Source: Pedosphaera sp. (GTDB lineage Bacteria; Verrucomicrobiota; Verrucomicrobiia; Limisphaerales; Pedosphaeraceae). Taken from it: 64,000 nucleotides of DNA. Below, piece by piece: positions 21,691 to 32,736 of the stretch. The position numbers and the translations under genes are program-made. A model generated the notes under the pieces. It saw nothing but the letters and a program-made list of their open reading frames with translations. It was not told the DNA's origin and did no database searches. The first letter of the stretch is position 1; every line of letters starts with the position of its first letter. Location: positions 23,200 to 87,199 of the forward strand of contig JAQGPC010000279.1 in the NCBI GenBank assembly GCA_028293285.1, given 5' to 3'.

Positions 21691-22077
21691 CTAATTCTTT
21701 CCCACAAAATCAATGACAAAGGCGTCACCAATCAAGGGCAGCGCAAGATCAACAAACTTTTTGTGCTCCGGATGGATCAGATAGGCATCGCGATCCTTTT
21801 CATTATTGAACGTCACAATAAAGCCGTGCGTAAAACCTTTATCGAGCTTTTCGGGGCTGACATTGGTGCCCCATTCGATGGAGACAACCTGGGGAATCTT
21901 TGATTTTAAGGCGCGGAACGCTTCTTCCACCTGTTTGATTTGTTCCTTGGTGGCACTGTCCTTGAATTTAAAAGCGACCACATGGCGCAGTTTTTCCTTT
22001 TTCGACACCGTCTCAGCAGCGAATGCGGTAAGGGCGAGTCCTAATAATGGGATGAGGCAAATGACCAGATATTTCAT
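21691..22077 (-). CDS. Exported Dabb (stress-responsive alpha/beta barrel) protein
   Basis: This 128-residue protein has a signal peptide (MKYLVICLIPLLGLALTAFAAE) followed by a Dabb ferredoxin-like domain. Visible marks are LRHVVAFKFKDSATKEQIKQVEEAFRALK, EWGTNVSPEKLDKGFTHGFIVTF and DAYLIHPEHKKFVD. The HVVxFKF and HPxHxxF patterns are typical. Dabb domains form dimeric barrels that bind small ligands, but the substrate here is unknown. The exported form is common in Planctomycetes and Verrucomicrobia (recalled). It lies 36 bases downstream of the amber-interrupted gene on the same strand and may share its transcript. Confidence 0.85.
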   Translation of the reverse strand: MKYLVICLIPLLGLALTAFAAETVSKKEKLRHVVAFKFKDSATKEQIKQVEEAFRALKSKIPQVVSIEWGTNVSPEKLDKGFTHGFIVTFNNEKDRDAYLIHPEHKKFVDLALPLIGDAFVIDFVGKN

Positions 22078-22515: not shown

Positions 22516-22760
22516 GCAAAAATGTTGGCAGTGATTTACAAATTTGGAAATTCCGAATCTCAAAACAGCTGTCTCAATAATAGGCAAATGGATTATCAAA
22601 CTGCCGGTGTAGGCAAATTATGTCGAAGCTCGTTACGAGTTTGAACCAATGCGGGACATAATTCCCCATAAAATTCCAAATCTCAGATTCTCATTGACGT
22701 AGTCAAAATCACCTTCCGAAGACATGCAGTCAGGCACGCTAGTTGCTTAAGATCAAAGGC

Positions 22761-24089
22761 ATGATAGGAAAATTGACAATACTAACTGCTCTCTGGGGTT
22801 GCGTAGCCGCTTTTTTCCTCGTTGCCAGCCAGGACGTTGGCGCGGCGGATGGCATTACCAAAGAACAGTTCCTGCAACTCCAACAGGAAAACCAGGCCTT
22901 CAAGGACCAGTTGCGCAAACAGCAGGAGTTGATTGATTCTCTCACGCACAAAGTTTCCGAAATCCAGGACGTAAACGCGAAACGTGATCATGAATTGATC
23001 GACTTGAAAGAGGGAAACGAAAAGCCATCGCAGGCAGGCGGACCGCTGCACTTCGGTAAAGTGAATATTTCAGGCGAAGGTGGCGTGGCATTCTTCCACT
23101 CGGAAAGCAAAGGGCAGACGCCCAATGCGGAATTTCGCATTGATGAAGCGAAAATATTCGTGGAAGCGCCCATCTGGAAGGATGTTTACTTTTTTTCGGA
23201 ATTGAACCTCGCGGCACGTGAAAGCATGGACTTGAACCTCCGGGTTGGTGAGTTGTATCTGGATTTTGAAAATGTCTCCCAATTATGGGGACGTGATCGT
23301 CAGCTCAACCTTCGGCTCGGCCGTTTCTATATCCCTTTTGGTGAGGAATATCTTAATCGTTTTGCCATTGATAACGCGCTTATCTCCCATTCAGTGGGTG
23401 ATTTGTGGGGTGTGGATGAGGGCGTTGAGGTTTACGGCAGTTTGGGCAAGTTCCAATACGTTCTCGCCGTGCAAAATGGCGGCGTGGCAACATCCCGGGA
23501 CTTTAACGCGGACAAAGCCATTGTCGGGCGTATCGGTTATGATCCGAATAAATGGCTGCATCTGAGCGTGAGTGGAATGCGGACGGGCGATATGGATGCG
23601 GTGAATGACGGCATTTCCGAATTGTGGTTTGGCAACGGCTGGATTCGTTCCATCGGGTCACCGAAGACGGCGATTTTCCGCGCCAATCTTGTCGAAGGAG
23701 ATGTGCAACTGCGTTTCCCATGGGCCCGGTTCAAAGCTGCGGGAGGATACATCAATTACGAAGACAATGATCCGATGGGACGCAATCACCGCGATGTTTA
23801 TTATTACTACGTCGAGGGAGTGAAGGACATCACTCGAAAACTTTATGCAGCCGGTCGGTTCAGCCAAATCCTGGCACCGGGAGGATTTCCCATCGTCGGA
23901 AACGCGGACATGGGTTATTTCGGTGAATTATCGAAGGATTATTGGCGGCTAAGTCTCGGTGTCGGTTATCGCTTCAGCCCTAATTTGGTTGCGAAGGCAG
24001 AATACAGCTTCAACCAGGGTAGAGAGTTGGACGGAAGCAAAAGGACTCACGAAAACCTATTTGCCATGGAGGCAGCATTCAAGTTCTGA
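22761..24089 (+). CDS. OprP/OprO-like outer-membrane porin with N-terminal coiled coil
   Basis: This protein of about 442 residues has a signal peptide ending near VGAADG. A heptad-rich coiled-coil segment follows (EQFLQLQQENQAFKDQLRKQQELIDSL). A beta-barrel of phosphate-selective porin type comes next, with LRLGRFYIPFGEEYLNRF, YVLAVQNGG and LSLGVGYRFSPNLVAKAEYSF, and ends FAMEAAFKF with a C-terminal Phe. The coiled coil probably trimerises the barrel. The substrate may be anions or oligosaccharides and is not certain. The track begins at a TTG (22743); I chose the ATG at 22761. The stop is followed at once by the cupredoxin gene, giving an operon with a sensor kinase. Confidence 0.85.
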   Translation: MIGKLTILTALWGCVAAFFLVASQDVGAADGITKEQFLQLQQENQAFKDQLRKQQELIDSLTHKVSEIQDVNAKRDHELIDLKEGNEKPSQAGGPLHFGKVNISGEGGVAFFHSESKGQTPNAEFRIDEAKIFVEAPIWKDVYFFSELNLAARESMDLNLRVGELYLDFENVSQLWGRDRQLNLRLGRFYIPFGEEYLNRFAIDNALISHSVGDLWGVDEGVEVYGSLGKFQYVLAVQNGGVATSRDFNADKAIVGRIGYDPNKWLHLSVSGMRTGDMDAVNDGISELWFGNGWIRSIGSPKTAIFRANLVEGDVQLRFPWARFKAAGGYINYEDNDPMGRNHRDVYYYYVEGVKDITRKLYAAGRFSQILAPGGFPIVGNADMGYFGELSKDYWRLSLGVGYRFSPNLVAKAEYSFNQGRELDGSKRTHENLFAMEAAFKF

Positions 24090-24090
24090 C

Positions 24091-24807
24091 ATGAGACGAT
24101 ATTTAACAATCCTTTTCAGCCTGACGATGATGGCTCTGCCCGTTGTCGCGGGAACTATTTCTGGCAAGGTGCGCGCCGAGGGAAAAGCCGGTGCCGACCA
24201 GGATGCCAACTGTGGCAAATATGATAGTCGCGCGTTGAAATTTGCGGAGAAGGTCAATTATGACGAGATGCGTGACTTTGTGGTTTATATCGAAGGGCCG
24301 GTGGGCACGAACAAGCTTGTTGTTCCTGACAAACCGGTGCAGGTGATAACGAAGAAAAAGGATTCGATCAATAAAGAGGTCAAACAAAAGGGAGCCATGT
24401 TTTCACCGCACATTCTGCCGATCGTGGTGGGGACAACCGTGGAATGGCCGAATAATGACGAAATTTATCACAATGTTTTCTCCTACTCGGAAGCCAAGCC
24501 GTTCGACCTTGGCTTATATAAGAGCGGGGAGAGCAAGAGCATCATTTTCGACGTAAAGGGTCGCGTGGACGTATTTTGTTCCATTCATTCCACCATGGGC
24601 TGCGTGGTAATGGTGTTGGAGAACCCATACTATGCGACCACCAACGACAAGAACCTTTATTCAATTTCCAATGTTCCACCAGGCACATACAAACTGAAAG
24701 CCTGGCATGAGCGGTTACCAAGCCAGATCAAGGAGATCACCGTGCCGGAAAACGGGGAGGTGAAAGTGGATTTCACCTTGGGGATCACCAATCTGCCAAA
24801 ATATTAG
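24091..24807 (+). CDS. Periplasmic cupredoxin (plastocyanin-like) with carboxypeptidase-like C-terminal domain
   Basis: This 238-residue protein begins with a signal peptide (MRRYLTILFSLTMMALPVVAG). The central part is a cupredoxin: PHILPIVVGTTVEWPNNDEIYHNVFSYSEAK and VDVFCSIHSTMGCVV supply the type 1 copper ligands His127, Cys163, His166 and Met169. A C-terminal carboxypeptidase-regulatory-like beta domain follows (LYSISNVPPGTYKLKAWHERLP). Similar proteins are often labelled methylamine utilisation proteins, although no amine dehydrogenase is nearby. The ATG at 24091 is one base after the porin stop and starts the signal peptide, so I prefer it to the longer track ORF. It may carry electrons or sense copper or redox state for the downstream kinase (inference). 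Confidence 0.88.
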   Translation: MRRYLTILFSLTMMALPVVAGTISGKVRAEGKAGADQDANCGKYDSRALKFAEKVNYDEMRDFVVYIEGPVGTNKLVVPDKPVQVITKKKDSINKEVKQKGAMFSPHILPIVVGTTVEWPNNDEIYHNVFSYSEAKPFDLGLYKSGESKSIIFDVKGRVDVFCSIHSTMGCVVMVLENPYYATTNDKNLYSISNVPPGTYKLKAWHERLPSQIKEITVPENGEVKVDFTLGITNLPKY

Positions 24808-24812
24808 CAGTC

Positions 24813-27083
24813 ATGAGCATACCTTCACTTAGGGCGCGAATAAGTTTTCAGGCTAAAATACTGATACCGGTCATCACGGTCATGATATTGCTGATCGCCA
24901 TCACCATGTGGTTGGTCGGCCGCCGCATCACGACGCAGATTGAAACCGACGCGGTATCGCAAAAATTGGAGACGGCAAATAAAGTCTTCAAAAATCTTCA
25001 AATTGTTCATGCCACCAATTTGGTTTCCAGATACCGCACGGTGATTAATGAACCACGATTTCGGGCAGCATCCCAGATTGATCCGGGCTCGACGGGCGCT
25101 TTGAAAACAGTGGATGGTTTTCTGAAAGAACTTATCCAGGATGATGGAGATGCAAAAATTGCCGTGCTTACATCAGAATCCGGCGGTCATTTGGCCAGCG
25201 CAAATCTCGATTCCAAACTGGAACTGGCGGAGTTTGAAGCGTCCAGTTTGCCAATAATCCGCCAGGCGCTTGATGGTCATATTGGGGTGGATACCATTCG
25301 AGTTGATAGCCGATTGTTTGAGGTGATTTCCCTTCCTGTTCGGGGTAATGGGGGTTCAATTTGTGCAGCTACCTTTGGGGTTGAGATTGGGGAAACGCTT
25401 GCGCGGGAGATCAAAGACCTTACCAGTAATGATATTCTGCTATTGGTGGACAACCAGGTGGTGGCGAATGCCTCCAGTTTTAAAAAGGCTGAATTATACC
25501 CCGAACTTACCGCAAAATTCATCAATTTAACTGCAAAGGAGAGAATACAGTCGAGCAAGGACAAAGAGATTATCCTGGGTCGGGAACACTTCCTGTGCAA
25601 GGCGGGGCAATTCGGAGCCGCCAGTCAACACGGTAAGCTCGGTTATTTATTACTCTCTTCTTATGAACATTCATTGGGCGAATTGCAGGTAACACAACGG
25701 ATGCTGCTGGCGGTAAGCTTTTTTGGAATAGTGCTGAGCGCGGGAATTGTCTGGCTGATCATCCGGACAGTGACCCAGCCTCTGCGCCAATTACGCGCCA
25801 GCGCCGAAGCGGTCGGTCATGGAGACTTTTCCAAATTTGTTGAAGTTAATTCCAAGGATGAATGCGGCGAACTGGCGGCGGTGTTCAATCAAATGATTGA
25901 GCGGGTCAAGACCTCGCGGGAACAACTGGAAAAAACCGTGGACACACTCAAATCCACCCAGAATCAGTTGATTCAGAGTGAGAAATTGTCGGGCATCGGT
26001 GAGTTCGTTGCGGGTGTGGCGCATGAGTTGAATAATCCACTGACTTCGGTGATGGGCTTTGCGGAAATATTGCAACAATCTGATTTGCCTGAACAGCATC
26101 GGCGCTTCCTGGACCTAATTTTTAAGAGCGCCAAGCGTTGCCAGAAGATCGTGCAGAGTTTGTTGAGCTTCGCGCGTAAACATTTGCCAGAGCGCAAAGT
26201 GGTGAGCGTGAATGAAGTGGTCGAGTCGGCCATCGAAATCGTGCAATACCAATTGCGCACAAGTAATATCGAAGTGGTGCCTGAATTAGAGCCGAATCTG
26301 CCCGCCACCATGGTTGATCCGCACCAGATGCAGCAGGTTTTTCTGAACCTGATTAATAATGCACGGCAAGCGATGGAGGGACGTCGCGATGGGCGTATCC
26401 GAATCAGCACCCAGGCGGCATCGAAAGAACGCGTCCGAATTATCATAGAAGACAATGGTCCGGGTATTTCACCCGAGAATTTGAAGAAACTGTTTGTGCC
26501 GTTCTTCACCACGAAAGAAGTGGGAAAAGGAACGGGACTCGGCTTAAGTCTCTGTTATGGAATCATAACAGAACACGGCGGCACCATCACGCCGGAAAGC
26601 AAACTGGGTGAAGGCGCGAAGTTCATAGTTGACCTGCCGGTAACGCAGGAAGCCGTGGCCAAAGTGGAAAAAGTCGCGGTTCCAGCGCAGCCGCAGTCGA
26701 CGAAGGAAGGCCTTGGCAAGCGCGTGCTCGTCGTGGATGACGAGGATACAATCCTGCAAATGATCCGTGAAGCGCTGACTCTCAATGGTTATCAGGTGGA
26801 TGTGGCGCGCGATGGTGAAACCGCCCTGCGTCGCATGGGCCAAAATCATTACGATCTTACATTATGTGATTGGAAAATGCCGGGCCTGAACGGGGAGCAA
26901 GTTTATGAACGGATAAACACGTCCAATCCAGAGCTGTCCCGCCGGATGATCTTTATTACCGGCGATGTCGTGAACGAGAAAACGCAGGAGTTCTTGAAGG
27001 CTCGCAACAAGATATGCCTGTCAAAGCCCTTTACGCTTTCTGAATTCCGGGCTGCAATCAGCCGGGTGTTGAACCCGGCGTAA
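24813..27083 (+). CDS. Hybrid sensor histidine kinase (Cache-like sensor, HAMP, HisKA, receiver)
   Basis: This 756-residue membrane protein has a first helix at about 15-35, a periplasmic sensor region of about 250 residues resembling a double Cache domain, and a second helix near 298-318. A HAMP domain follows (TQPLRQLRASAEAVGHGDFSKF). The kinase shows the H box VAGVAHELNNPLT with His404, N box LINNARQAM, G1 DNGPGI and G2 GTGLGLSL. A C-terminal receiver has VVDDED, phospho-acceptor Asp686 in LCDWKMPG and conserved Lys738 in SKPF. Phosphate should pass from His404 to Asp686. No DNA-binding response regulator is adjacent, so the output partner is unknown. It lies five bases after the cupredoxin gene. 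Confidence 0.93.
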   Translation: MSIPSLRARISFQAKILIPVITVMILLIAITMWLVGRRITTQIETDAVSQKLETANKVFKNLQIVHATNLVSRYRTVINEPRFRAASQIDPGSTGALKTVDGFLKELIQDDGDAKIAVLTSESGGHLASANLDSKLELAEFEASSLPIIRQALDGHIGVDTIRVDSRLFEVISLPVRGNGGSICAATFGVEIGETLAREIKDLTSNDILLLVDNQVVANASSFKKAELYPELTAKFINLTAKERIQSSKDKEIILGREHFLCKAGQFGAASQHGKLGYLLLSSYEHSLGELQVTQRMLLAVSFFGIVLSAGIVWLIIRTVTQPLRQLRASAEAVGHGDFSKFVEVNSKDECGELAAVFNQMIERVKTSREQLEKTVDTLKSTQNQLIQSEKLSGIGEFVAGVAHELNNPLTSVMGFAEILQQSDLPEQHRRFLDLIFKSAKRCQKIVQSLLSFARKHLPERKVVSVNEVVESAIEIVQYQLRTSNIEVVPELEPNLPATMVDPHQMQQVFLNLINNARQAMEGRRDGRIRISTQAASKERVRIIIEDNGPGISPENLKKLFVPFFTTKEVGKGTGLGLSLCYGIITEHGGTITPESKLGEGAKFIVDLPVTQEAVAKVEKVAVPAQPQSTKEGLGKRVLVVDDEDTILQMIREALTLNGYQVDVARDGETALRRMGQNHYDLTLCDWKMPGLNGEQVYERINTSNPELSRRMIFITGDVVNEKTQEFLKARNKICLSKPFTLSEFRAAISRVLNPA

Positions 27084-27123: not shown

Positions 27124-27537
27124 TCAGGTTGAAGGTTGCCGGAGTTGGCCGGAAGCGAACTTCCGCTGATTATAGTTCCGCCCTGTTGGACTGCCCGTCG
27201 GTGCTGCGGCTCCTCTCGGCTTGAGCGTAATGTTGTTTATGACCTGGCGCACACCTTCCACCCTTTGCGCGACTTCCGCTGCACGGGCTTTCTGCTCGGG
27301 CGTATCCACAAACCCACTCAGTTGAACCACGCCGTCTAAAGTTTCGACCTTTACATCCGGGAACTTGTAAATGGGTTCCCTATTAAGCGCATGTTTTACG
27401 CGGTGTGTAAGGGTGGCGTCATCTATGCGGCGGCCAACTGTGCGATCCCCTCCGGTGTGGCATCCCGTCAAAGTCATCAGCGCAATTACGGCGCCAAGGC
27501 AGATGGTGGGAATGAAACGTCGTCGATTTATTTGCAT
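27124..27537 (-). CDS. BON-domain lipoprotein
   Basis: The protein starts at the ATG at 27537 (MQINRRRFIPTICLG), with lipobox LTGC. A BON domain follows (DATLTHRVKHALNREPIYKFPDVKVETLDGVVQLSGFVDTPEQKARAAEVAQRVEGVRQVINNI). BON domains are thought to bind phospholipid or attach proteins to membranes, and OsmY-like proteins protect the envelope under stress. The mature protein is probably tethered in the periplasm. The nine extra residues in the track ORF are dropped because they precede the signal peptide. The gene faces the sensor kinase gene tail to tail. Confidence 0.88.
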   Translation of the reverse strand: MQINRRRFIPTICLGAVIALMTLTGCHTGGDRTVGRRIDDATLTHRVKHALNREPIYKFPDVKVETLDGVVQLSGFVDTPEQKARAAEVAQRVEGVRQVINNITLKPRGAAAPTGSPTGRNYNQRKFASGQLRQPST

Positions 27538-27659
27538 ACCTTTCTTTGCTCCTTGTATCACCACAATATGCTTTCAGCCCTGTCAAGCCATGGGGTATTT
27601 CCTGTATTTTCCTGCTCTGGTGGGATTCCCTTTTTTGAATATTATAGTATCATGTTGAG

Positions 27660-28721
27660 GTGGAAAGCAGTACCAACCCAATCCCCAGCCGCGGCGCAAC
27701 CGGTAATCCCACCAACCGGTTTGAGAATATCCATTTGGAGCGCGATATGGACTGGAACCCGGAAGAGGATGCGTTGCCGACCACCCAATTTCTGCGGGAC
27801 CACACCAGCAAGATCATTAACCGAAACGATAGTCCAGATGTCGGCTTTGAATATAGTATAAACGCGTATCGCGGTTGTGAGCATGGTTGCATCTATTGTT
27901 ATGCGCGCCCGACCCATGAATATTTGGGATTTTCGTCCGGGCTCGATTTTGAAACGAAAATCATGGTGAAAATGGAGGCGGCCAAGCTGCTGCGGGCAGA
28001 ACTTTCTTCGCCCAAATGGCAGCCCGAGGTGATTGCCATGAGCGGGGTGACGGATTGTTATCAACCCGTTGAACGTAAATTGAAACTGACTCGGCAATGT
28101 CTGGAGGTGCTGGCCGAGTTCCGCAATCCGGTGGCGATTGTGACCAAAAATCATTTGGTGACACGTGACATTGATTTGTTGAGTGAGTTGGCACGGCATC
28201 GTGCGGCAGCGGTATTCCTCTCGGTGACCACGCTCGATACAGACTTGCGAAAAGTAATGGAGCCGCGCACTTCGCCGCCCGCAAGCCGATTGTCAGCCAT
28301 CGCCGAACTGACCAAAGCTGGCATACCGACTGGTGTGCTGGTTTCGCCAGTTGTTCCCGGGCTGACTGATCACGAAATTCCTGCCATTGTTTCTGCGGCG
28401 GTAAAAGCGGGGGCGAAATTTGCCGGTTATGTGACGTTGCGGTTGCCTTATTCCGTTGCGCCTTTGTTCGAGCAATGGCTGGCACAGCATTTTCCCGATC
28501 GCAAAGAAAAGGTATTGAACCGGATTCGAGCGTTGCGCGATGGCAAGTTGAATAACGCGGATTTTGGTTCACGCATGCGCGGGGAGGGGATCTTTGCCGA
28601 TCAGATTGAAGCTCTCTTCAATGTGGCCTGTCGGAAGGCGGGCATTCAAGATAACCACACGGGGCTTTCCACGGCGGCATTTCGACGACCGGCTGGAGCT
28701 CAAATGGAATTTGGTCTTTAA
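27660..28721 (+). CDS. Radical SAM protein (PA0069/spore photoproduct lyase-like)
   Basis: This 353-residue protein carries the 4Fe-4S radical SAM motif in YRGCEHGCIYCYARPTHEY (CxxxCxxC). After it come SGVTDCYQPVERKLKLTRQCLEVL and VTKNHLVTRDIDLL, as in the PA0069 family. The N-terminal SRGATGNPTNRFE also matches that family. The enzyme would cleave S-adenosylmethionine reductively; its substrate is unknown, and the resemblance to DNA photoproduct lyase is only at fold level. The start is a GTG at 27660, chosen because the conserved N-terminal motif lies soon after it. It appears monocistronic. Confidence 0.88.
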   Translation: MESSTNPIPSRGATGNPTNRFENIHLERDMDWNPEEDALPTTQFLRDHTSKIINRNDSPDVGFEYSINAYRGCEHGCIYCYARPTHEYLGFSSGLDFETKIMVKMEAAKLLRAELSSPKWQPEVIAMSGVTDCYQPVERKLKLTRQCLEVLAEFRNPVAIVTKNHLVTRDIDLLSELARHRAAAVFLSVTTLDTDLRKVMEPRTSPPASRLSAIAELTKAGIPTGVLVSPVVPGLTDHEIPAIVSAAVKAGAKFAGYVTLRLPYSVAPLFEQWLAQHFPDRKEKVLNRIRALRDGKLNNADFGSRMRGEGIFADQIEALFNVACRKAGIQDNHTGLSTAAFRRPAGAQMEFGL

Positions 28722-28879
28722 GAGTTGGGCCACGGTTTAAGCTTCCAAAGGTTCGCATGGTTATTTTCTCTGGCGTGTCGAGTCGGAAAACATCATCGGT
28801 AGCACTTTTAGCCATTGGCACTTTGTCCTTAACTACTCTAAACTCCATCGCGAGAATCGGACAAGCGTCCGGGAATACT

Positions 28880-29818
28880 ATGAGTAAGATTGTTTTGCTG
28901 GTGATGCTGGGATTGACCGTGATGGGCACGGGCTGCTCCTTTAAGCGTCTGGCTGTTAATCAGGTTGGCAATGCGCTGGCTGGCGGTGGAACGACCTTTG
29001 CCTCTGATGATGATCCCGAACTGGTCAAGGCGGCGGTGCCTTTCAGTTTGAAGTTGATGGAGAGTCTCCTTGCCGAAAGTCCCCGACATGAAGGGTTGCT
29101 CTTCGCTACGGCCAGTGGTTTTACACAATATTCCTATGCGTTCGTGCAGCAGGACGCGGATGAAATGGAAGGAAAAGACTTTGCTGCCGCCGAGGAAATG
29201 AGAGCGCGGTCCCGGCGCTTATATCTGCGTGCGCGTAATTATGGTTTGCGTGGCCTGGAAGTGAAACACAAGGGCTTTGAAAAAGCGTTGCGGTCAGATC
29301 CTAAACAAGCCGTGCGTGGTGCAACCGTGAAGGATGTGCCACTCCTCTATTGGACAGCGGCGTCCTGGGCGGGAGCCATTTCACTCTCAAAAGATAATCC
29401 TGATTTGATTGGTGAACTGCCGATGGTTGAAGCGATGATGGATCGTGCGCTGGCATTGGATGAGAGCTTTGGTGATGGTTCGATTCATTCGTTTTTTATC
29501 ACTTATGAAATGGGCCGTGCGGGTGGAAACGGTGATCCTGAGTTGCGGTCGAGAAAACACTTTGACCGGGTGATGGCCCTGACCGGCGGACAGCAAGCCG
29601 GGCCACTGGTGTCATTGGCCGAGGCAGTATGCGTGCCAAAGCAGAATGTGAAGGAATTTGAGTCACTGCTCAATCGGGCATTGGCCATCAATCCGGATGC
29701 AAAACCGGAATGGCGTCTGGCAAATCTGGTCGCGCAACGCCGGGCGAAATGGCTGCTAACGCGCACCGATGATCTTTTTTTACAAAAAAATCCCACCGAG
29801 AACAAAGAATCCAAGTAG
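28880..29818 (+). CDS. TRAP-associated TatT-family lipoprotein
   Basis: This protein of about 312 residues has lipobox MGTGC and a helical TPR-like body (PFSLKLMESLLAESPRHEGLLFATASGFTQYSYAFV). TatT-type (T component) lipoproteins were described as TPR partners of TRAP substrate-binding proteins. Here the next two genes encode exactly those TRAP components. The ATG at 28880 is chosen because it begins the signal peptide; the longer track ORF (28757) has no support. It lies four bases before the DctP gene, so the three genes form one operon. The protein probably passes ligand to, or positions, the periplasmic binding protein. Confidence 0.85.
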   Translation: MSKIVLLVMLGLTVMGTGCSFKRLAVNQVGNALAGGGTTFASDDDPELVKAAVPFSLKLMESLLAESPRHEGLLFATASGFTQYSYAFVQQDADEMEGKDFAAAEEMRARSRRLYLRARNYGLRGLEVKHKGFEKALRSDPKQAVRGATVKDVPLLYWTAASWAGAISLSKDNPDLIGELPMVEAMMDRALALDESFGDGSIHSFFITYEMGRAGGNGDPELRSRKHFDRVMALTGGQQAGPLVSLAEAVCVPKQNVKEFESLLNRALAINPDAKPEWRLANLVAQRRAKWLLTRTDDLFLQKNPTENKESK

Positions 29819-29821
29819 TAT

Positions 29822-30862
29822 ATGCAGATTATGAATCGTCGATTTTGGTTAAGCAGCGTATTGGCTGTCTCACTTAGTCTGGTTGTTACCGGTCTTCAGG
29901 CTGCGGACAAACCTGTGAAGCTTAAGCTGGGCACGCTCGCTCCCGCAGGCACGTCCTATCACAAAAGTCTGCAAGCAATGGGTGAGAAGTGGCGCAAGGT
30001 TTCGAATGGGATGGTGCAATTGACAATCTTTCCGGGCGGCACGCAGGGTGGTGAGCCAGATATGGTGGGCTTGATGCAGACCGGTAATCTTGACGCAGGG
30101 TTGCTGACGGCTGGCGGACTTTCGGAGATTGATCGAGCTGCCCTGGGAATGGAAGTCATGCCGATGTTCTTCCACAATCTGGAGGAAGTGGATTATGTCA
30201 GCGAGAAGTTGCGCTCGAAACTGGAAGCGCGTCTGGCTGCCAAAGGTTATGTAGTTCTGTTTTGGTGCGATTCCGGTTGGGTGCGATTTTTTTCCAAGTC
30301 ACCCGTGGAACATCCGGACGATCTGCGCAAGTTGAAGGTTTTTTCCGGAGCGGGTCACACTCATGAATATGACTTGTGGAAGATGAGCGGGTTTAGTCCG
30401 GTGGCGCTGGAATCCGTCGCAATTCCTCAGGGTTTATTGTCGGGTACTATTAGCGCAGTGCCAACCGTTCCTATTTTCGCGTTGGCGGCGCAATTGGATG
30501 GACAGGCGACATACATGCTGGAATTGAACTGGGCCCCGTTGGTGGGAGCAGCCGTGGTGCAGAAAAAGGCCTGGGATCGGGTTCCGGCCGATACTCGCGA
30601 AGCCATGCTCAAAATCGCCGCAGAAACCGGTTTGCAGGTCAAGGCGGCTGGCCGGGCTGAAAGCGATGCTGCCGTGGCGGCGATGGTCAAGCGCGGGTTG
30701 AAGGTTCAGAAGGTCACTCCGGCAGTGGATACGGAATGGCGGACGGTGATTGATCCATTGCAGACTCATATTCGCGGGAAGATTGTGCCAGAGGATATCT
30801 TTGATGAAGCGCAACGTTTAGTGAAAGAATTTCGCGCTACTGGTGGAGCCAAGCCAAAATGA
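29822..30862 (+). CDS. dctP: TRAP transporter substrate-binding protein (DctP family)
   Basis: This periplasmic protein of about 346 residues captures a carboxylate ligand and delivers it to the TRAP permease. It has a signal peptide ending LQAADK. The body carries LKLGTLAPAGTSYHKSLQAMGEKW, IFPGGTQGGEPDMVGLMQTGNLD, VFSGAGHTHEYDLWKMSGFSPVAL and a conserved Arg region. The ligand cannot be predicted with confidence. The ATG at 29822 or, three codons on, 29831 could be the start. The stop overlaps the permease start (ATGA), which couples the two. The operon order is TatT, DctP, DctQM. Confidence 0.92.
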   Translation: MQIMNRRFWLSSVLAVSLSLVVTGLQAADKPVKLKLGTLAPAGTSYHKSLQAMGEKWRKVSNGMVQLTIFPGGTQGGEPDMVGLMQTGNLDAGLLTAGGLSEIDRAALGMEVMPMFFHNLEEVDYVSEKLRSKLEARLAAKGYVVLFWCDSGWVRFFSKSPVEHPDDLRKLKVFSGAGHTHEYDLWKMSGFSPVALESVAIPQGLLSGTISAVPTVPIFALAAQLDGQATYMLELNWAPLVGAAVVQKKAWDRVPADTREAMLKIAAETGLQVKAAGRAESDAAVAAMVKRGLKVQKVTPAVDTEWRTVIDPLQTHIRGKIVPEDIFDEAQRLVKEFRATGGAKPK

Positions 30863-32736
30863 GTAGCGGCACTCTCCCCGGGCCTGACCTCGTGGCTCCC
30901 GTCGCACCCGTGAAGCTCTCGCGCGGTTGGCGATTGATTCGTGAGGGTGAAAATTCCCTGCTGGTGATTCCCCTGGCGGCCATGCTGCTGCTGCCAGTGA
31001 CGGAAATCATCCTGCGCCTGGTTTTCAAGACCGGCATTTCCGGCTCCAGCGCGATTGTCCAACATTTGACTTTGATCGTCGGAATGTTTGGCGGAGCCAT
31101 TGCGGCGCGCGACCAACGGTTGCTGGCACTTTCGCCAATCCAGACGTTACTTAAAGGTAAGCTGAAAACGGCGGCTCAAATTTTCAGCAGCGGTGTTGCT
31201 GCCGCCATCAGCTTGTTTCTTTGCCTGGCGAGTTATGAATATGTGGCCGCCCTCAGGCCGCTGGGAAAAATTCTTGTTTATGGAATTCCAGTGTGGGTGG
31301 TGCAACTCGTCCTGCCGATTGGTTTTGGTCTGATTGGATTGCGACTGATCTGGCATGCTTCGCCAAAATGGAGTGGCCGGTTGCTGACGCTCGCACTGGC
31401 GGCTGGACTTGCAGCGATGGCGAAATGGTCTCCCATCACACCAGAGCAATTCATGATTCCTGCGCTCGTGATGTTGGGCCTGGCGACTTTGCTGGGTGCG
31501 CCAGTATTCACGGCTTTGGGCGGCGCAGCATTAATTTTATTTTGGGGGCACGATCTGCCGATCCAGGCGGTTCCGCTCAAGCACTACAGCCTTACGACAA
31601 ATGATATGCTACCCAGCATCCCGATCTTTACACTGGCAGGATATTTTCTGGCGGAGAGCGGCGCGTCCAAACGATTGGTGCGGGTATTTCAGGCGTTGGT
31701 CGGACAATTTCGTGGCGGCCCGGCAATCGTCACTGCTTTGGTTTGCGCGTTCTTTACTTCGTTCACTGGTGCTTCGGGCGTCACAATCCTCGCGCTGGGT
31801 GGAGTGCTCATGCCGGTGTTGCTCGCGGCACGTTATTCCGAGCGCAACGCACTTGGATTGCTCACCGGAGCCGGCTCGTTGGGCATGTTGTTTCCGCCGT
31901 GCCTGCCGCTGATTCTGTATGCCATCGTTGCCAACCACAGCGCGCACGCCGACCTGAGCATCAAGCAAATGTTTCTTGGAGGGCTCGGGCCCGGAATTCT
32001 GCTGGTCATATTGACGGCTTGGTGGGGGATTCGCAAAGGGCCCAAGGAGAAAGCTGACCGCACGATTTTTCAATGGTCGGAAGCCCGGGCCGCCATTTGG
32101 GCTGCCAAGTGGGAAATGTTGATTCCCGTGGTCGCAATCGGTTCTCTCTTTTGCGTGCCGACCACAGTTGAAGCGGCTGCGATCACCGCTGCTTACGCGC
32201 TTCTGGTTGCAACGGTAATTCATCGCGATCTGCATCCGATTCGTGATTTGCCACGAGTCATCACGGAATGCGGATTGCTGGTAGGCGGCGTGTTATTGAT
32301 TTTAGGCGTGGCGTTGGGTTTCACGCATTACCTCGTGGACGCGCAGATTCCGGATAAAATGGTGGAATGGGCCACCGTTACGGTGAAGTCCAAATTTCTG
32401 TTCCTGCTTGGCCTCAATATCGTGTTGTTGATTGTCGGTGGATTGATTGAAATTTACGCGGCTATTATTGTGGTCGTGCCGTTGCTGGTGCCGCTGGGGG
32501 TGGCGTTTGGTATCGATCCCGTTCACCTGGGAATTATTTTCCTCGCCAACATGGAGCTCGGTTTTTTAGCGCCGCCAGTCGGCATGAACCTGTTGCTTTC
32601 CTCATATCGCTTCAACAAGCCGATGTCCGAAGTCACGCGCGCTACTTTTCCGATGCTGCTCGTGTTATTATTGGGCGTGTTATTGATTACCTATTTTCCG
32701 CCGCTAACGACATTCCTGCCACGGTTGTTTAAATAG
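30859..32736 (+). CDS. dctM: TRAP transporter fused permease (DctQ-DctM)
   Basis: This 625-residue integral membrane protein combines the small DctQ subunit (about residues 25-165, four helices) with the large DctM subunit (about 180-625, with many helices). The DctM half shows ALVCAFFTSFTGASGVTILALGG, GLLTGAGSLGMLFPPCLPLILYAI and FLANMELGFLAPPVGMNLLLSSYRFNKPM. It uses a sodium or proton gradient to import the ligand delivered by DctP. Fused QM proteins are known. It overlaps the DctP stop by four bases. It ends ten bases before the amidase gene on the opposite strand, so the two units converge. Confidence 0.93.
   Translation: MSSGTLPGPDLVAPVAPVKLSRGWRLIREGENSLLVIPLAAMLLLPVTEIILRLVFKTGISGSSAIVQHLTLIVGMFGGAIAARDQRLLALSPIQTLLKGKLKTAAQIFSSGVAAAISLFLCLASYEYVAALRPLGKILVYGIPVWVVQLVLPIGFGLIGLRLIWHASPKWSGRLLTLALAAGLAAMAKWSPITPEQFMIPALVMLGLATLLGAPVFTALGGAALILFWGHDLPIQAVPLKHYSLTTNDMLPSIPIFTLAGYFLAESGASKRLVRVFQALVGQFRGGPAIVTALVCAFFTSFTGASGVTILALGGVLMPVLLAARYSERNALGLLTGAGSLGMLFPPCLPLILYAIVANHSAHADLSIKQMFLGGLGPGILLVILTAWWGIRKGPKEKADRTIFQWSEARAAIWAAKWEMLIPVVAIGSLFCVPTTVEAAAITAAYALLVATVIHRDLHPIRDLPRVITECGLLVGGVLLILGVALGFTHYLVDAQIPDKMVEWATVTVKSKFLFLLGLNIVLLIVGGLIEIYAAIIVVVPLLVPLGVAFGIDPVHLGIIFLANMELGFLAPPVGMNLLLSSYRFNKPMSEVTRATFPMLLVLLLGVLLITYFPPLTTFLPRLFK

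Follow-up and report, generated by a model that had tools for sequence, protein, structure and literature searches.

A cupredoxin gene between a barrel gene and a double-Cache hybrid kinase gene in Pedosphaera: a candidate copper-protein-coupled receptor

In the LuxP-LuxQ and TorT-TorS systems a periplasmic partner protein signals via a membrane hybrid kinase; the periplasmic domain of LuxQ has a double-Cache fold, which reads the periplasmic protein LuxP. In the SenC/PrrC-PrrB (RegB) system an extracytoplasmic copper-binding protein is linked to a redox-responsive kinase. CinA of Pseudomonas putida is an azurin-like copper protein encoded near the two-component system CinRS and is a copper-induced target. 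Blue copper proteins are textbook electron carriers; to our knowledge they are not established as dedicated signalling subunits. Here we describe an operon in 64,000 nucleotides of Pedosphaera sp. DNA (contig JAQGPC010000279.1, positions 23,200 to 87,199; this whole stretch is called the window) which encodes a putative outer-membrane beta-barrel protein, a cupredoxin and a hybrid histidine kinase. From the sequences we lean towards reading it as a copper-protein-coupled receptor, with the cupredoxin as periplasmic sensing subunit.

A comparable arrangement is found in arsenite/arsenate sensing, where the secreted protein AioX is encoded beside the membrane kinase AioS and is thought to be its ligand, and where the trees of AioX, AioS and AioR are congruent (PMC5908839). 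The operon in the window resembles AioX-AioS-AioR in its secreted partner encoded beside a membrane kinase and in its congruent trees. AioX, however, has a periplasmic binding protein fold for an oxyanion, whereas the cassette has a type 1 copper protein, an added barrel and an exchangeable output. LuxQ is among the Foldseek matches of the window sensor model; LuxP and TorT have sugar-binding-protein folds with small-molecule ligands and are not copper proteins. SenC/PrrC is a Sco (thioredoxin-like) protein and not a cupredoxin, and its kinase is without a Cache domain. For CinA and CinRS we know of no double-Cache pairing, barrel or output swapping.

Burkholderiales cupredoxins labelled 'methylamine utilization protein' beside EAL proteins belong to the same family and occupy the same place immediately ahead of a dCache_3-HAMP receptor; they differ in having a GGDEF-EAL output and, as neighbour, a DUF3034 protein, often accompanied by a truncated haemoglobin. 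These pairs are annotated, but we found no paper that treats them as a system, and we found no description of the cassette in the open-access literature, although subscription journals may hold one. We regard the cassette as one of a known kind, a periplasmic partner with a membrane receptor, in which the copper protein as partner and the exchangeable output are new.

The operon and its three products

The main features of the operon are as follows.

22761-24089, plus strand: outer-membrane beta-barrel gene (porin-like), ending with TGA at 24089
24091-24807, plus strand: cupredoxin gene, from ATG at 24091 to a TAG end at 24807
24469-24471, plus strand: predicted copper ligand His127, which is His in every one of the 92 receptor-associated and the 29 oxidase-type relatives compared
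24577-24597, plus strand: predicted copper ligand loop Cys163-x2-His166-x2-Met169 (Cys163 24577-24579, His166 24586-24588, Met169 24595-24597)
24813-27083, plus strand: hybrid histidine kinase gene, ATG at 24813
24924-25682, plus strand: periplasmic double-Cache sensor, approximate limits (Pfam dCache_3, 25.8 bits against a cut-off of 25.7)
25755-25910, plus strand: HAMP (Pfam, 48.9 bits)
25998-26180, plus strand: HisKA (Pfam, 72.2 bits), with phospho-acceptor His404 at 26022-26024, invariant in kinase alignment A2
26316-26645, plus strand: HATPase_c (Pfam, 94.1 bits)
26724-27059, plus strand: receiver (Pfam Response_reg, 80.9 bits), with phospho-acceptor Asp686 at 26868-26870, invariant in A2

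The cupredoxin (238 amino acids) consists of a signal peptide, an N-terminal strand region, the cupredoxin fold and a C-terminal CarboxypepD_reg-like domain. Its Pfam Copper-bind score is 25.5 bits (cut-off 21.2), and all four type 1 ligands named in an earlier note on this DNA are there. The complete H-C-H-M set is present in 91 of the 92 receptor-associated cupredoxins and in 29 of 29 oxidase-type relatives. In a Foldseek search the AlphaFold model (pLDDT 81.7) best resembles the cupredoxin domain of NirK, the purple cupredoxin of N. maritimus, amicyanin and pseudoazurin. By its ligand set in a cupredoxin fold the protein is a type 1 (blue) copper protein, predicted to bind copper. An amicyanin or methylamine utilisation reading, the label which the earlier note had mentioned, was rejected because the curated amicyanin model TIGR02657 gives 21.4 bits, far under its cut-off of 110.2. 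Methylamine dehydrogenase (PF06433) has no match in the window genome and likewise none in any of the 14 control genomes.

The kinase is a transmembrane protein of 756 amino acids, with a double-Cache periplasmic sensor followed by HAMP, HisKA, HATPase_c and receiver domains. The last four score well above their Pfam cut-offs, whereas dCache_3 is barely above; elsewhere dCache_3 reaches 29.2 bits in locus L005 and has no match in L006 and L020. The AlphaFold model of the sensor domain (pLDDT 84.1) has a double-Cache fold by Foldseek, with PctD, DctB, vpHK1S-Z8, Tlp3 and LuxQ among its many matches; no solved structure is closely related to the sensor by sequence. Both this model and that of the cupredoxin are of usable confidence. 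Alignment A2 has invariant His404, ATP-binding motifs, Asp642/643, Asp686 and Lys738. Pfam domains and the modelled fold thus agree with the Cache/HAMP/HisKA kinase with its own receiver described earlier, and by its domains and phospho-acceptors the protein is classed as a hybrid histidine kinase. The window genome encodes only one such sensor, and it belongs to this operon.

The barrel protein (442 amino acids; a TTG at 22743 is a possible alternative start) has a signal peptide, a short coiled coil near its N-terminus and a C-terminal Phe. Its sole Pfam match is BBP2, at 22.4 bits and under the cut-off of 26.2. The barrel alignment (A1) has 21 members, and on sequence grounds the barrel is a family of its own near BBP2. 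The earlier description as an OprP-like porin was not borne out, and an OprP/OprO-like porin was rejected: Pfam Porin_O_P is absent, the BBP2 match is below cut-off, and no homologous solved porin was found in the PDB by sequence.

All three open reading frames lie on the plus strand at the positions described earlier, with gaps of 1 base between barrel and cupredoxin and 5 bases between cupredoxin and kinase. The genes on either side are the following.

21691-22077, minus strand: upstream neighbour with a Dabb domain, divergent from the trio
27124-27564, minus strand: downstream neighbour with a BON domain, convergent on the trio

Because of these orientations the transcription unit can contain just the trio, which would form one closed, co-transcribed operon. 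Consensus promoter and terminator scans of the operon region gave no more matches than shuffled sequence.

Further downstream, a radical SAM gene lies close behind the window kinase (27660-28721), and a look-alike (L134:11332-12399) lies close behind an orphan kinase in locus L134; this pair is possibly old synteny. Three genes at 28757-32736 resemble a TRAP transporter set: as read from the translations, their products look like a lipoprotein, a DctP-type binding protein and a membrane protein in which DctQ and DctM are fused.

Recurrence in Verrucomicrobiota and output exchange

When genome contigs were scanned with the cupredoxin, 21 Verrucomicrobiota loci were recovered; wherever the contig extends far enough, they have the genes for barrel, cupredoxin and kinase on one strand and in the window's order. 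Loci scoring above 250 bits with the A3 profile are called close; after further genomes were added there were 42 distinct close loci, with the barrel directly upstream in 40 and a receptor downstream in 40. The earlier note had regarded a lack of recurrence in other genomes as speaking against its proposal; the same trio is found in about 40 other loci. As for the exceptions, the contigs of L022 and L007 stop within the operon, L069 is a decaying copy that lacks the kinase and retains a fragment of the barrel, and L106 has lost its barrel.

The L106 cupredoxin has Tyr in place of the copper ligand His166. In L006 a second, tandem cupredoxin (L006:8691-9395), to which the L106 protein is similar, lies ahead of the kinase and has lost both His166 and Met169. 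These two proteins are possibly copper-free variants of the sensing subunit.

Of the 146 genomes compared within the order, 23 carry the close cupredoxin, 22 carry the sensor domain, 21 carry the barrel and 20 carry the complete set. Cupredoxin and sensor agree in 21 genomes, with 2 and 1 discordant (Fisher p = 4e-22), and cupredoxin and barrel also in 21, with 2 and 0 discordant (p = 2e-23); the p-values for the presence and absence of the families together, about 1e-21 to 1e-23, count the genomes as independent, though they are related. The recurrence of the trio and the common presence and absence of its three families are more than chance.

Cupredoxin relatives with lower scores (about 98-150 bits) directly precede a membrane receptor which has a homologous sensor and other outputs. 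Domain assignments in this survey rest on the similarity of profiles and sequences to reference proteins, and a sample of them was checked with Pfam. Four outputs are found behind the cupredoxin. The hybrid kinase recurs in L037. HisKA-HATPase receptors with an OmpR-type regulator upstream are present in L038, L039, L042, L043, L046, L047 and others, and class III nucleotide cyclases in L040, L045, L048 and others. The fourth output is GGDEF-EAL: a dCache_3-HAMP-GGDEF-EAL protein follows the cupredoxin on plasmids from Comamonas, Caballeronia, Paraburkholderia and Novosphingobium.

The barrel usually adjoins the distant cupredoxin-receptor pairs too. It is first in the operons of clade I, the cupredoxin clade of the window, and last in those of clade II; the window barrel is homologous to the clade II barrels (hhalign probability 98.9 %). 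The plasmid pair is adjoined by a DUF3034 protein and a truncated haemoglobin in Caballeronia, Paraburkholderia and Novosphingobium, the exception being Comamonas. The DUF3034 protein has a C-terminal Phe as in outer-membrane barrels and is a candidate barrel; homology to the barrels was undetectable by hhalign, in which few sequences were compared. L028, L032, L135 and L136 have the DUF3034 protein and a group 1 truncated haemoglobin beside the cupredoxin and GGDEF-EAL protein, with the Novosphingobium pairs divergent. The truncated haemoglobin in these Pseudomonadota operons might, as a guess, point to chemistry that involves oxygen or nitric oxide.

The tree of the cupredoxins, 121 in all, has a 100/96 branch that splits 92 receptor-associated rows from 29 receptor-free rows. 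The receptor-associated cupredoxins form three clades: I, with hybrid kinases including that of the window, II, with cyclases and kinases, and III, with cyclases and GGDEF-EAL proteins. A tree of the sensor domains, from which HAMP and output were excluded, has the same three groups, with outputs mixed inside two of them. The agreement of the two trees means that the cupredoxin tracks the sensor, while the output varies within groups. Comparison of the sensors by hhalign gave 96-99 % for clade I against II and III, 100 % for clade II cyclases against clade II kinases and 96 % for clade III against clade II cyclases. Sensor and cupredoxin are linked in 21 of the 22 genomes which hold a clade I sensor.

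The separate 29-member branch without a receptor led us to reject the idea that all such cupredoxins go with receptors. These oxidase-type sister cupredoxins include a second cupredoxin of the window genome (L052:7849-13452, contig C29), which directly precedes CtaA, CtaB, COX1 and COX3, and in related genomes a run of similar gene lengths lies behind the oxidase-type cupredoxin. The oxidase-type protein is likely an electron donor or assembly factor.

The cupredoxin as a probable receptor input

In the proposed mechanism the barrel would span the outer membrane and the double-Cache kinase the inner one, while the cupredoxin would be periplasmic and possibly attached to a membrane. Copper occupancy or the Cu(I)/Cu(II) state would alter the docking of the cupredoxin on the Cache domain, and this docking would control how active the output domain is. 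The hybrid kinase of the window would send phosphate via its own receiver to a partner, and in relatives the same cupredoxin-sensor pair would drive an OmpR-linked kinase, a class III cyclase or a GGDEF-EAL enzyme. The likely role of the barrel is to let in the substrate or metal by which the cupredoxin is loaded, reduced or oxidised. The docking, the copper or redox signal and the role of the barrel are all steps which we infer.

Cyclases and cyclic di-GMP enzymes keep the cupredoxin neighbour and the cupredoxin tracks the type of sensor, which fits the cupredoxin as receptor input. Conservation has the pattern that such a role predicts: the cupredoxin has a mean column identity of 64 % and the sensor, in 19 clade I sequences, 39 % with two invariant positions, as the cupredoxin, not a fixed small-molecule pocket, would carry the signal. 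The earlier note had proposed a sensory unit linked to redox or copper that couples outer-membrane traffic to phosphorelay, and it knew of no standard named system with this combination. The sensory unit gains from the recurrence, the change of gene order with the set kept, the output swaps and the congruent clades. Barrel traffic may be coupled to phosphorelay in the window; phosphorelay is just one of at least four outputs and is therefore not the defining part.

Several observations weigh against the cupredoxin as receptor input. The sensors of clade III and the clade II kinases do not match significantly when compared directly (hhalign 7.5 %), although each matches clade I, and common operon descent alone would also yield agreeing trees. 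Among 43 clade II-type sensors in the order, 28 directly adjoin a cupredoxin and 1 more is split from it by contig ends; the other 14 are without one, all but one of them on cyclases. Two clade I kinases stand alone, one in genome G296 and one as a second copy in G348, and L049 and L127 hold cupredoxin and barrel without a receptor. The cupredoxin-free clade II sensors and lone clade I kinases mean that the sensor can work without the cupredoxin. Strict one-to-one linkage of sensor and cupredoxin was rejected, as it fails in clade II.

L133:5687-7216 and L134:6019-8346 are clade I kinases with the same sensor and no adjoining cupredoxin or barrel. The receptors of L137-L150 are double-Cache proteins of the clade II type, almost all of them class III cyclases, with no adjoining cupredoxin and often beside genes for about 430-480 amino acids; they are a separate sub-family.

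The cupredoxin and barrel could instead be effectors: the Cache receptor would detect an outside ligand and control the production of an electron carrier, together with the outer-membrane channel that matches it, for a respiration or oxidation pathway induced by that ligand. Direct binding of small molecules is common among Cache domains, 11 clade II operons have an OmpR-type regulator gene immediately upstream, and the sister cupredoxins sit in cytochrome oxidase operons (a second copy in the window genome included), so that the ancestral role may be electron transfer. Yet the cupredoxin also stays right beside cyclases and GGDEF-EAL proteins, neither of which is dedicated to controlling the transcription of an adjacent gene. 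The cassettes have no partner dehydrogenase or oxidase gene that we could see, conserved sensor positions are few, and the cupredoxin clades track the type of sensor and not that of output. We consider an effector role unlikely, if the most serious of the alternatives.

Periplasmic copper homeostasis, with a kinase that responds to copper ions, a cupredoxin that stores or buffers copper and a barrel through which copper enters or leaves, would suit the retention of all four copper ligands, and it has a precedent in Synechocystis copMRS, where copper-responsive two-component genes adjoin the gene for a periplasmic copper-binding protein (PMC4335983). The double-Cache sensor is, however, poorly conserved, and its few invariant residues are not metal ligands. 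Nor does the window operon contain a copper ATPase, RND pump or multicopper oxidase; we saw none as a regular partner elsewhere, where neighbours were not exhaustively annotated. This explanation seems improbable to us. Operon linkage alone never proves function, and the three genes might be co-expressed, functionally unrelated and held together by descent. However, the three families are present or absent together, and a functional set is still kept while the barrel leads the operon in clade I, ends it in clade II and gives way to DUF3034 in Pseudomonadota, a set re-assembled independently. We give an accident of descent very little credence.

The cupredoxin as receptor input leads to a wider and more tentative proposal, which we rate at somewhat below an even chance: a family of receptors with a blue copper protein as input, in which electrons or copper switch a Cache receptor and the same input is plugged into phosphorelay, OmpR-type, cyclic nucleotide and cyclic di-GMP outputs in at least two phyla. 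The cassette suggests a function for many proteins labelled 'methylamine utilization protein' and for orphan Cache kinases, cyclases and GGDEF-EAL enzymes, and natural output swaps on one sensor pair would be useful for receptor engineering. If the proposal is true, a redox-wired signalling module is present in at least two phyla.

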